Below are positions 1-6,871 of a DNA stretch of 64,000 nt, one piece after another (the stretch's first letter is position 1; every line of letters begins with the position of its first letter). The notes under the pieces were generated by a model. It saw only the letters and a program-made list of their open reading frames with translations. It made no database searches and was not told the DNA's origin. The position numbers and the translations under genes are program-made. This DNA comes from Alphaproteobacteria bacterium (GTDB taxonomy: Bacteria; Pseudomonadota; Alphaproteobacteria; Caulobacterales; Hyphomonadaceae): the NCBI GenBank assembly GCA_018969425.1, contig JAGWYJ010000003.1, positions 1-64,000 of the forward strand. Direction: 5' to 3'.

Positions 1-1
1 C

Positions 2-1408
2 AGCCAGGACTCAGACGGGGGGCTTGCCTTCAGGGAGCGCCACAATCTCTCGGTCCCCGTGCTCTCCGACGCCGAGTGCCGGACGTCGATGGCCTGGGAC
101 TTCGAAATCGTCCCGGCAGCCTTTCTGCTGGATGCAAACGGCGTCGTCCTCGAGCGCTTCGAGGGCTTCGTTAAAGAGGAATGGCGATTGATGGAGGCGC
201 ACCTTCAGCCTGCCGAAGCCGATAGGCAGCCAGACATCGACTGGTCGGCCTACCCTGACTGGCGTCCAGGGTGCGGCTCAAAGCATCTCGACCCTGCCAT
301 AAGCGACCGTTTGCAGGCCGAAGCCGAAGACAGCCCCTTGAGGGCCCGGAAGATTAACATCGGACAGTCCGACGACATCAGCGAATTCATGTTTGATCAG
401 GGTTTCAGCGACGGCCTTCCGCTCGTACCCCCTACTCCCGAGCGCGTACTTAAGATGCTTAGAGGCGCCGGGCGCAACTCCCAGGAGGTCGTCGCAATCG
501 TACCCCCGAACATGGCGCCAGCGACAGTTGAGAAGATTGCTATCAACGCTGTCATGGCCGGGTGTCGCCCGGACTATCTTCCTGTGATCATCGCCGCCCT
601 CGAAGCAGTCTGTACGGACGCCTTCAATATGCATGGGGTGACGGCGACCACGATGGGCGCTTCTCCGGTTCTGGTGGTCAACGGCCCTGTGCGCCATCGG
701 CTTGGCATGAACATGCAACTCAGCGCACTGGGCCCAGACAACCGGGCCAACGCCACGATAGGACGCGCCCTCAGGCTGATTATCCGCAATGTGGGAGGCG
801 CCCGCCCCGGAGGAGTTGACCGCTCCACCCTCGGAAACCCCATGAAAATCACCATGTGCTTTGCCGAATGGGAGGAGCGCTCGCCCTGGTCGCCCCTTCA
901 TGTTGAAAGAGGCTTCAAGCCGGACGAATCCGTTGTGACCGCATTCGCCATGACCAGCGGTCCGGTCCAGATCGTCGACCAGGAATCACGGGCCCCGGAC
1001 CAGATCGCAGGATCCCTGGGCCTGGGTCTTGAAGGCGTCTTTCTTCCAAAGATGCGGAGAATGCACACGGACGCGCTTCTGGTCGTCTGTCCGGAGCACG
1101 TGGCGACCCTGACCAGTCAGGGGGATTATTCCAAGGAGCGCCTGAGGGCGCGCATTCAGGAGGTGACCCGGCGACCGCTTCGGGAGATGCTCGCCGACGA
1201 CCGGTCCGGCGCTGGCCTTTCAGCTGCGGCCGCGGCGCGTCTTTCACCCGCCCAGCTTGACGAGACGGTTTCAAAATTCGCCAGCCCGTCAAACATTCAT
1301 CTCTGTGTGGCGGGTTCAACCGCCGGCAAGTTTTCGGCCGCCTTTCACGGATGGGTGACGGGGGCCATGGGTTCGACCGCGGTTTCCAGACGGATCGAAA
1401 CCCTGTAA
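2..1408 (+). CDS. Thioredoxin-like/UGSC-partner domain fusion protein (5' end outside window)
   Basis: The reading frame is open from the first bases of the window, so the N-terminus is missing; an internal ATG at 59 is not the true start. The first ~70 visible residues look like the back half of a thioredoxin/peroxiredoxin fold (FRERHNLSVPVLSD, then VPAAFLLDANGVVLERFEG); the active-site Cys or Sec would lie upstream of the window. After a linker with a PGCGSK motif comes a ~340-residue conserved domain (GFSDGLPLVPPTPERV, TVEKIAINAVMAGCRPDYLP, GPDNRANATIGRALRLI). I recall this domain type as a neighbour of UGSC-family proteins, but I know no assigned activity. It ends 30 nt before the selenoprotein gene, on the same strand with no room for a promoter of note, so the two are probably one operon. 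A thiol/selenol redox role is inferred from the thioredoxin part and the context only. Confidence 0.8.
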   Translation, partial: SQDSDGGLAFRERHNLSVPVLSDAECRTSMAWDFEIVPAAFLLDANGVVLERFEGFVKEEWRLMEAHLQPAEADRQPDIDWSAYPDWRPGCGSKHLDPAISDRLQAEAEDSPLRARKINIGQSDDISEFMFDQGFSDGLPLVPPTPERVLKMLRGAGRNSQEVVAIVPPNMAPATVEKIAINAVMAGCRPDYLPVIIAALEAVCTDAFNMHGVTATTMGASPVLVVNGPVRHRLGMNMQLSALGPDNRANATIGRALRLIIRNVGGARPGGVDRSTLGNPMKITMCFAEWEERSPWSPLHVERGFKPDESVVTAFAMTSGPVQIVDQESRAPDQIAGSLGLGLEGVFLPKMRRMHTDALLVVCPEHVATLTSQGDYSKERLRARIQEVTRRPLREMLADDRSGAGLSAAAAARLSPAQLDETVSKFASPSNIHLCVAGSTAGKFSAAFHGWVTGAMGSTAVSRRIETL

Positions 1409-1438
1409 ACTGCCGAAGTCGCGCTTGCGGAGGACCGA

Positions 1439-1957
1439 ATGCTGACCATTCTCGATCCCACGGACGAACGTGTCCCCATTGAACGGCGAATCACGCCGAG
1501 GACAGGCCGGATCTCAGGAGTGATTGGGCTTCTCGATATTCGAAAGCCGAGGGGCGATGTGCTTCTGGATGAGCTCGCCGCCATTCTGGCTGAGCGAGCG
1601 CCAGACGTGGAAGTGCGGCGCTACCAGAAGCCCACCTTCGCCAAACCGTGCCCAGACGAACTTAGGGGCAGGATCCGCGATGAATGTTCGGCGGTGATCG
1701 AGGCTCTTGCGGACTGAGGCTCATGCACGACGTGCAGTATGCACGACACGGTATGGTTTGAGATCCAGGGGCTTCCATCGGTGACCATCGCATCCAGCGA
1801 ATTCCATGAGGCGGCTATTGTTCAGCGCGACGCGCTGGGGATGACGGACGCTCGTTTCGTTCTCGTGGACCACCCGATTCAGGACGCGACCGACGAGGAA
1901 ATGAGACTGAAGGCTCGGGGTGTGGCGGACGCGGTGCTAGCCGCGCTGACGGACTGA
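1439..1957 (+). CDS. UGSC-family selenoprotein, Sec encoded by in-frame TGA at 1715-1717
   Basis: This is one 172-residue protein read through an in-frame TGA as selenocysteine at residue 93. The start ATG is preceded by GGAGG at 1429-1433 with 5 nt spacing. The frame continues without a break from the TGA to the TGA at 1955-1957. The codons around the TGA give A-D-U-G-S-C-T-T-C-S-M-H-D, the signature of the UGSC selenoprotein family first described from marine metagenomes. Downstream, W-F-E-I-Q-G-L-P-S-V-T is the conserved helix/strand after the motif, and the remaining residues (ALGM..RFVLVDHP) match the family layout. A conventional gene caller would report two small hypothetical proteins (92 and 72 residues). 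The Sec plus Cys96 and Cys99 suggest a redox or thiol-transfer active site; the substrate is unknown. The gene follows a thioredoxin-domain gene. It requires SelA/B/C/D, none of which is in the window. Confidence 0.9.
1715..1745 (+). promoter_or_regulatory. Putative bacterial SECIS element of the UGSC selenoprotein
   Basis: Directly after the TGA (1715-1717) a 6-bp perfect stem forms between 1731-1736 (CGUGCA) and 1740-1745 (UGCACG), closing a GUA loop at 1737-1739. The loop begins with G followed by U. It lies 19 nt after the TGA, inside the 16-37 nt window and the 3-14 nt loop size expected of bacterial SECIS elements, which sit inside the coding region and recruit SelB. A competing hairpin, 1724-1728 with 1732-1736, shares one arm; its loop is too close to the TGA to be the SelB site. 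Confidence 0.65.
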
Positions 1958-1997
1958 CCGGGAGGGTCCGGGGACGGAATGAGATGAAAGGTCGCCG

Positions 1998-2020
1998 TCA
2001 CCCCCAAGAGGGGGGGGTGA
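1998..2020 (+). terminator. Hairpin downstream of the selenoprotein gene
   Basis: An 8-bp stem pairs 1998-2005 (TCACCCCC) with 2013-2020 (GGGGGTGA), about 40 nt after the selenoprotein stop. There is no T-tract, so intrinsic termination is doubtful. It may be a 3'-end stabiliser or part of the gltB leader. A second imperfect inverted repeat (TTCGACC at 2022-2028 and GGTCGAA nearby at ~2045) follows. No known riboswitch was recognised. Confidence 0.3.
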
Positions 2021-2230
2021 GTTCGACCATGAAATCGCCTTCGGTCGAAACACATCGCCCCAAATCAGGCCCGACGCTAGGCGATCATGCCCACGACAAG
2101 GGCATGGAGTAGATCCTCTCAACCTCCTTTGCAGTTTTCCCCGGCGCGTGGGGACAAGTTGGCTCTTGGACGAAGGGCCCTCTTCCTGCTACGCGCGCAG
2201 ATCACCTGTCGAATGAACGGATGGAAACGG

Positions 2231-6871
<4,641 letters not shown>

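Follow-up and report, generated by a model that had tools for sequence, protein, structure and literature searches.

The locus raises two questions: whether an in-frame TGA in a short gene is read as selenocysteine, and what the resulting protein might do. We analysed a stretch of 64,000 nucleotides, referred to as the window, which covers positions 1 to 64,000 of the forward strand of contig JAGWYJ010000003.1 (assembly GCA_018969425.1, Alphaproteobacteria, Hyphomonadaceae). The first-pass annotation, made from the letters of the window, had joined two small frames of one phase, 1439-1717 (92 amino acids) and 1739-1957 (72 amino acids), across TGA 1715-1717. It had described the product as a 172-residue protein with a U-G-S-C motif, a good ribosome site and family-like sequence on both sides of the TGA. 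Each of these points was borne out, and the features of the gene are as follows.

1429-1433, plus strand: ribosome-binding site GGAGG, 5 bases 5' of the ATG (direct reading)
1439-1957, plus strand: UGSC family selenoprotein gene, 172 residues with Sec93, Cys96 and Cys99 (translation with TGA as U; family profile matches)
1715-1717, plus strand: in-frame TGA, predicted selenocysteine 93 (translation, homologues, co-occurrence with SelA, codon-position bias)

Translation of 1439-1957 begins at ATG 1439 and ends at the true stop TGA 1955-1957. With the internal TGA translated as U, the joined protein carries the motif U93-G-S-C96-T-T-C99. It matched the Pfam UGSC family (PF24696) over positions 1-171 of 172 (E 7.6e-47, 160.1 bits, cut-off 25) and the NCBIfam model UGSC_fam (NF041046) over positions 4-147 of 147 (E 3.1e-47, 160.3 bits, cut-off 125). 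Each half alone matched its own part of the Pfam model: positions 1-92 for the half before the TGA (E 3.6e-15) and positions 94-171 for the half behind it (E 4.9e-23). Further, we compared the 78 codons behind the TGA with five relatives and counted differences at codon positions 1/2/3 (10/8/42, 11/8/47, 13/8/41, 13/9/37 and 15/7/39). The changes fell mostly on third positions, therefore the part behind the TGA appears to be under selection as protein. In an alignment of 104 UGSC rows, residues 93 (Sec or Cys), 96 and 122 were invariant. Outside this alignment, L255 (G910:C84) has Cys in place of Sec and Ser in place of Cys96 (motif CGSS). Cys96 is thus not universal, and a member with Cys can lose the other half of the redox pair.

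The window gene is a further member of an already known selenoprotein family and, as a finding, it is ordinary. The expectation that automatic annotation would almost certainly split or drop it went too far: the gene need not be dropped, because NCBI holds a curated model, NF041046, for exactly this family.

A working selenocysteine system had been implied by the first-pass annotation, which proposed to look for selA, selB, selC and selD. We found all of them in the window's own genome (3.2 Mb in 91 contigs, stated completeness 99.98%), which supports that claim. SelA (E 2.5e-142), SelB (304.7 bits, cut-off 242) and tRNA-Sec (76 bits) lie side by side on a 9.3-kb contig, C19, and SelD (426 bits, cut-off 125) lies on contig C9. 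The tRNA on C19 has the anticodon TCA (UCA as RNA), and ARAGORN names it tRNA-Sec. A second locus of the same genome also scored above the cut-off of the tRNA-Sec covariance model (51 bits), so this model is not very specific and alone is not decisive.

Beyond the tRNA-Sec, the end of C19 carries the start of a gene that continues at the start of the window. Positions 1-294 of C19 and 1-294 of the window agree in opposite orientation (96.9%, 9 mismatches). The mismatches between the two contig ends perhaps reflect differences among strains, or a repeat collapsed where the assembly broke. On the most economical reading, C19 and the window form one island, selA-selB-selC-partner-UGSC, broken at a contig end. 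In a relative, G200, selA, selB, tRNA-Sec, the partner gene and UGSC follow in that order on one contig. A scan of window positions 1-4500 with Rfam gave nothing at gathering scores.

The host genome (G000) has a second gene with TGA as Sec, which lies outside the window (L064, G000:C9, at about 59.6 kb, minus strand). It encodes a PrdB/GrdB-like selenoprotein with the motif UPNCTRAVC, stands beside a transposase-like gene (rve/HTH_21) and is about 12 kb from selD.

We looked at the occurrence of UGSC and SelA in 299 genomes drawn from the order. UGSC was found in 21 of them, 18 of these having one in-frame TGA; at the level of matches, 18 of 22 had exactly one in-frame TGA and the other 4 had Cys there. 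SelA scored above its cut-off in 17 of the 299 genomes, and all 17 were among the 18 with a TGA-containing UGSC gene. Three further genomes gave sub-threshold SelA matches only. SelA and UGSC share a contig in 15 of the 17, at a distance of 1.9 to 4.1 kb, and G000 and G096 have them on separate contigs. The sole genome with a TGA-containing UGSC gene and no SelA match was G274. Its likeness to the island (L046, G274:C13) stops inside the partner gene, and an IS240-type transposase gene (DDE_Tnp_IS240, E 2e-41) begins where it stops, at position 4526 of L046. A break at such a transposase marks the G274 gene as a natural remnant. The genomes G087, G147 and G167, which have UGSC members with Cys and no TGA, gave no SelA match. 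Neither UGSC nor SelA was found in the four other listed genomes of the window's own genus.

In a draw of 385 genomes from the class, UGSC was present in 38, with up to 8 copies each. By hand count from the listing, 92 of the 97 matches had one TGA; the remaining 5 were four Cys members (L231, L250, L251, L255) and one fragment. Five genomes of the class (G797, G886, G804, G959 and G965) each carry between 6 and 8 copies of UGSC, almost all of which contain TGA. A TAG codon occupies the Sec site of the UGSC gene (L144, 6993-7499) in Candidatus Blastococcus massiliensis. In Blastococcus (L144/L149) the best match to the tRNA-Sec model has the anticodon CTA, and ARAGORN labels it tRNA-Pyl. UAG-encoded Sec in UGSC proteins of Geodermatophilaceae has been published already, according to the part of that paper available to us (PMC5330540). 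We also searched viral contigs with a pattern and obtained 36 matches, none of them a relative; the pattern spelled the motif with Cys codons, so TGA forms would escape it.

The TGA might instead be a true stop, in which case the gene would be degenerate or would encode two small proteins, the downstream one beginning at ATG 1739. TGA is indeed a stop in table 11, and ATG 1739 follows close behind it. Against this stand the Sec machinery, the co-occurrence with SelA, the third-position bias, the family match on both sides, and the Cys and TAG versions at the Sec site. The first-pass annotation had named homologues that end conservedly at this codon as a contrary sign; what we observed were versions with an in-frame TGA, Cys or TAG instead. 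We consider a true stop or a pseudogene ruled out by the machinery, the co-occurrence, the third-position bias and the variants at the site, and put the chance of it as extremely small. Insertion of Sec at TGA 1715-1717 is, judged from the sequence, nearly certain.

Behind the TGA we identified a candidate recoding element.

1731-1745, plus strand: SECIS-type hairpin, stem 1731-1736/1740-1745 (CGUGCA/UGCACG), loop GUA 1737-1739 (folding of the sequence behind the TGA)

Bacterial SECIS elements have a G within the first two loop bases. The window hairpin has 6 bp, its loop lies 19 nt after the TGA and G is first in the loop. Of the Sec rows, 137 of 137 had a hairpin whose stem has 4 bp or more and whose loop has G at its first or second position; these rows are the 138 Sec matches minus one incomplete, and the 138 represent 131 distinct proteins, as seven proteins occur twice. 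The loop was 17-19 nt behind the TGA in 134 of the 137. The exceptions were L118 (13 nt), where a longer alternative stem scores best, and L226 and L229 (24 nt each). Stem changes were compensatory, from CGUGCA/UGCACG to CAUGCA/UGCAUG in L053, L081, L114 and others. Fused members have very different stems (CCCGC/GCGGG; GCCCCAC-GGUC-GUGGGGU in L059). The second selenoprotein gene of the host, L064, has the hairpin CGCGCA-GUA-UGCGCG with its loop 18 nt after the TGA. The window hairpin was equalled by 300 of 5000 synonymous recodings, and 84 of the 137 rows reached 5% or less against 200 recodings each. A hairpin in a single sequence is thus weak, and the weight is carried by the constant place and the compensated changes. 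In four Cys members the region folds unlike in Sec members, a number too small for a claim.

Having placed the gene in its family, we turned to its neighbourhood. The gene that enters the window from C19 is the near-constant neighbour of UGSC, and its features are given below.

2-1408, plus strand: partner gene, cut by the contig start, stop TAA 1406-1408 (frame reading, Pfam, contig overlap)
to about 180, plus strand: end of the thioredoxin/AhpC-TSA-like domain of the partner (Pfam)
266-280, plus strand: linker with PGCGS motif (sequence reading)
about 371-1405, plus strand: "DGLP" domain (no Pfam family matched)

The N-terminus of the partner, with a CKTC motif, is on C19, and this part matched thioredoxin/AhpC-TSA with E 3.2e-9. 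DGLP is a name coined here for a domain about 340 residues long, D-G-L-P being one of its motifs. It gave no convincing match in Pfam or NCBIfam, and its best PDB sequence match had E 0.047. As it has no recognised family, any role proposed for it is a guess.

A search of genome contigs with DGLP only confirmed 563 relatives, of which the best 80 became the named loci. These were picked for likeness to the window's DGLP, so proportions among them are no survey, and assembly titles can be wrong. In 77 of these best 80 loci, UGSC comes after DGLP in the same orientation, at most 268 bases away (median 35). The distance is about 1.8 kb in L117 and L118, and the record of L121 ends 227 bases after DGLP. 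Exactly one TGA was present in the UGSC frame in 77 of the 80, the exceptions being L121 (no UGSC match), L132 (contig end before the site) and L144 (TAG). The PGCGS linker motif was found in 68 of the 80. In 75, a motif of thioredoxin type precedes DGLP in the same frame, with Thr in place of the second Cys in L115 and L116. Three loci (L128, L135, L146) seem to be without the thioredoxin domain, the region is masked in L092, and L139 carries CPTC and failed the motif rule owing to a TGA further upstream. UGSC and DGLP were fused in one chain in 21 of 52 loci examined (18 Sec, 3 Cys), a set that includes 20 loci fetched for their long frames. We regard the partnership of UGSC with the thioredoxin-DGLP protein (Trx-DGLP) as constant, and highly probable to be so. 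In several multi-copy genomes of the class, an additional DGLP gene, a second or third one, adjoins the UGSC-DGLP pair or fusion.

Since UGSC and its partner sit in the sel gene cluster, they might serve selenium metabolism itself, as a selenium carrier, a sensor or a reductase feeding SelD. The fetched flanks of the 80 named loci contain selA in 22, selB in 21 and a SelD-type gene in 7 (clusters named by eye from sequence, not by HMM), and in the host the cluster can be read as selA-selB-selC-partner-UGSC across the contig break. However, 58 of the 80 lack selA in the vicinity, some of these being cut short by a contig end, and the Cys members of G087, G147 and G167 stand in genomes that gave no SelA match. 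A single genome can also have many copies, and the setting of some looks catabolic. We therefore consider a role in selenium metabolism very improbable.

We then asked how UGSC relates to other selenoproteins. When the 104 UGSC rows were scanned against NCBIfam (hmmscan, E up to 0.1), the glycine reductase selenoprotein B model TIGR01917 was matched in 39 rows, NF040794 (GrdF) in 37, TIGR01918 (a mixed family) in 14, NF040795 (GrdH) in 12 and TIGR04483 (PrdB) in 9. The best E value to a Grd/Prd model was 1.3e-5. Among the matches listed, no family outside UGSC and Grd/Prd was seen in more than 2 of the 104 rows. The window's own UGSC protein gave no Grd/Prd match at E 0.1 in this NCBIfam scan, nor did L059 and L190, which were scanned singly. 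Singly scanned members that did match reached 11.5 to 16.1 bits against curated cut-offs of 300 to 800. Arithmetic that ignores gaps places the UGSC Sec of L118 (residue 91) and of L187 (residue 92) near position 347 of the 431-position profile.

Further, we compared a UGSC profile with one made from 11 PrdB-like proteins, the host's own included; these were the 11 of 36 extracted loci that had a clean frame by the motif rule. The comparison gave P values of 2.2e-5 and 3.5e-5, with Sec aligned to Sec. Its score was 37.8, against at most 20.5 in 40 controls with block-shuffled columns and 15.1 for the reversed profile. The hhalign probability was 72-77% for the PrdB-like profile and 18% for one GrdB fragment, a single truncated sequence. 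The motif U-x-x-C-x-x-C, which a 2026 review names for GrdB in the part available to us (PMC13188914), was present in 112 of 131 distinct Sec UGSC proteins (119 of 139 rows). A search for a GrdE-type partner (PF09338) found no match in the host genome, nor in any control genome. PDB sequence relatives were not convincing (best E 0.84 for UGSC, 0.053 for the PrdB-like protein). The Sec domain of UGSC is very probably homologous with that of GrdB/PrdB, at a distance, as far as sequence comparison can tell.

The fold of UGSC was predicted with AlphaFold2, with Sec modelled as Cys (pLDDT 94.8, pTM 0.88). The model has five strands and five helices in strict alternation, and Sec93 lies just before helix 94-109. 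Its neighbours in Foldseek and VIA-align were lumazine synthase, flavodoxin-like and receiver-domain folds with middling scores, and Foldseek also listed flavodiiron, azoreductase and similar folds. No thioredoxin fold was among the 50 Foldseek neighbours listed. The predicted fold thus looks flavodoxin-like, unlike the thioredoxin fold that had been supposed; the architecture is a very common one and proves no function. Such a listing of neighbours excludes nothing, a thioredoxin-like fold included. We also modelled a natural UGSC-DGLP fusion, L056 (pLDDT 86.5, pTM 0.89), and the neighbours listed for it were taken up by its UGSC domain. For both models the second neighbour was 8s7v_H, a chain of the methyl-coenzyme M reductase activation complex (Z 10.1 for UGSC, 10.4 for L056).

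These data bear on the view that UGSC is a redox protein, with the fused thioredoxin domain as a redox relay and DGLP as an accessory. The U-x-x-C motif is redox-like, the partner has a thioredoxin/AhpC-TSA domain, and genes for pyridine nucleotide-disulphide oxidoreductases, thioredoxin-reductase-like by eye, stand near three fused members. The authors of the Global Ocean Sampling (GOS) study themselves supposed a redox role and a thioredoxin fold, as stated in the portion of their paper that was available (PMC2398784). Against it speak the alternating strands and helices of the model with no thioredoxin among the 50 neighbours listed, and the HMM matches of UGSC, which go to Grd/Prd reductases. 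Moreover, up to 8 copies per genome would suit substrate diversification better. We find the redox reading rather unlikely.

We favour, with some reserve, the explanation that UGSC is the small selenium subunit of a two-subunit reductase recharged by thioredoxin, with the product of the upstream Trx-DGLP gene as the large subunit. In the proposed sequence of steps, TGA 1715-1717 would be read as Sec with the help of the host SelA, SelB, SelC and SelD and the hairpin at 1731-1745. UGSC and Trx-DGLP would then form a physical complex. The Sec loop, U-x-x-C-x-x-C at the start of a helix, would be homologous to that of reductase selenoprotein B. The DGLP domain would hold and polarise the substrate, the selenolate of Sec93 would attack carbon, and the leaving group (an amine or similar) would be freed. 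Cys96 would resolve the selenium intermediate, giving a selenenylsulfide. This may be reduced again by the CxxC of the fused thioredoxin domain, or by the thioredoxin-reductase-like flavoprotein found beside some other members. The Sec coding, the machinery, the gene partnership, the distant homology and the predicted fold come from the sequences; the complex and the order of the reaction we infer.

The mechanism is carried over from the chemistry of glycine reductase protein B. There, according to the available parts of two papers, the substrate is bound by protein B, its C-N bond becomes polarised and Sec attacks as a nucleophile (PMC13188914, PMC10838667). A GrdB-like pair has also been proposed, in the accessible part of one of these, to cleave the C-F bond of monofluoroacetate (PMC10838667). 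By this analogy, a chemistry of reductive cleavage for UGSC has a chance that we would put just short of even. In multi-copy genomes, some UGSC-DGLP genes are near hydantoinase A/B genes (L236, L239) or an N,N-dimethylformamidase-like gene (L241). Such neighbours would suit C-N chemistry and are a possible hint at the substrate, the examples having been picked from 20 loci.

We put forward tentatively, and as somewhat doubtful, that UGSC and Trx-DGLP form an unrecognised and widespread class of enzymes. Its members would be selenium reductases of the GrdB type that bring their own thioredoxin domain for recharging, encoded partly in a sel island. They would occur in Alpha- and Gammaproteobacteria, Chloroflexi, Actinomycetota and others (by titles), with up to 8 copies in some genomes of the window's class, and would cleave bonds of carbon to nitrogen or another heteroatom in organisms other than the strict anaerobes from which glycine reductase is known. 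If this is true, selenium-dependent carbon-heteroatom cleavage is spread far more widely than among the amino-acid-fermenting anaerobes where it was first found. UGSC, tied to a defined partner, to a fused thioredoxin domain and to the Sec domain of glycine and proline reductases, thereby gains a testable hypothesis for an uncharacterised family. What is newly added to the first-pass annotation is the upstream partner gene and the relation of UGSC to GrdB/PrdB.

Among known systems, the nearest is the UGSC family itself (PF24696, NF041046), described in the GOS paper of 2008. The window protein matches it over its whole length, with the UGSC motif and Sec at the same place, and shows no difference of substance; it stands beside the partner gene and, across the contig break, the sel genes. 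UGSC ranked with the most abundant selenoproteins of the aquatic GOS metagenomes, according to the available parts of two reports (PMC2398784, PMC9402790), and the excerpt of the 2026 review still counts it among selenoproteins largely uncharacterised in function (PMC13188914). The first-pass annotation had called the function of the family undetermined, which agrees with the accessible parts of the literature (PMC2398784, PMC13188914, PMC9312934, PMC5330540, PMC7539508, PMC9402790, PMC5029168). Those same parts of the open-licence papers name for UGSC no function beyond the supposed redox role and no relation to GrdB (PMC2398784, PMC13188914, PMC9312934, PMC5330540, PMC7539508, PMC9402790, PMC5029168). 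Literature searches for UGSC likewise listed no paper that assigns it a function in its title or in the first lines of its abstract. The UGSC/Unknown_1 fusion of the GOS paper likewise joins a UGSC domain to a conserved domain; Unknown_1 may be our DGLP, which is a guess.

The second comparison is with GrdB/GrdF/GrdH and PrdB (PF07355, TIGR01917, TIGR04483), which have, like UGSC, the motif U-x-x-C-x-x-C with Sec at the matching place. UGSC differs from them in size, with 172 residues against models of 431 (TIGR01917) and 238 (TIGR04483), in lying far below the curated Grd/Prd cut-offs and in having Trx-DGLP as its partner. The Grd/Prd reductases are known from amino-acid-fermenting anaerobes, unlike UGSC, whose host genomes carry titles such as Phenylobacterium, Henriciella, Hyphomonas and Sulfitobacter. 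The Grd/Prd system is also a thioredoxin-linked reductive one with substrate-specific gene copies, as described in the available parts of two papers (PMC13188914, PMC10838667).
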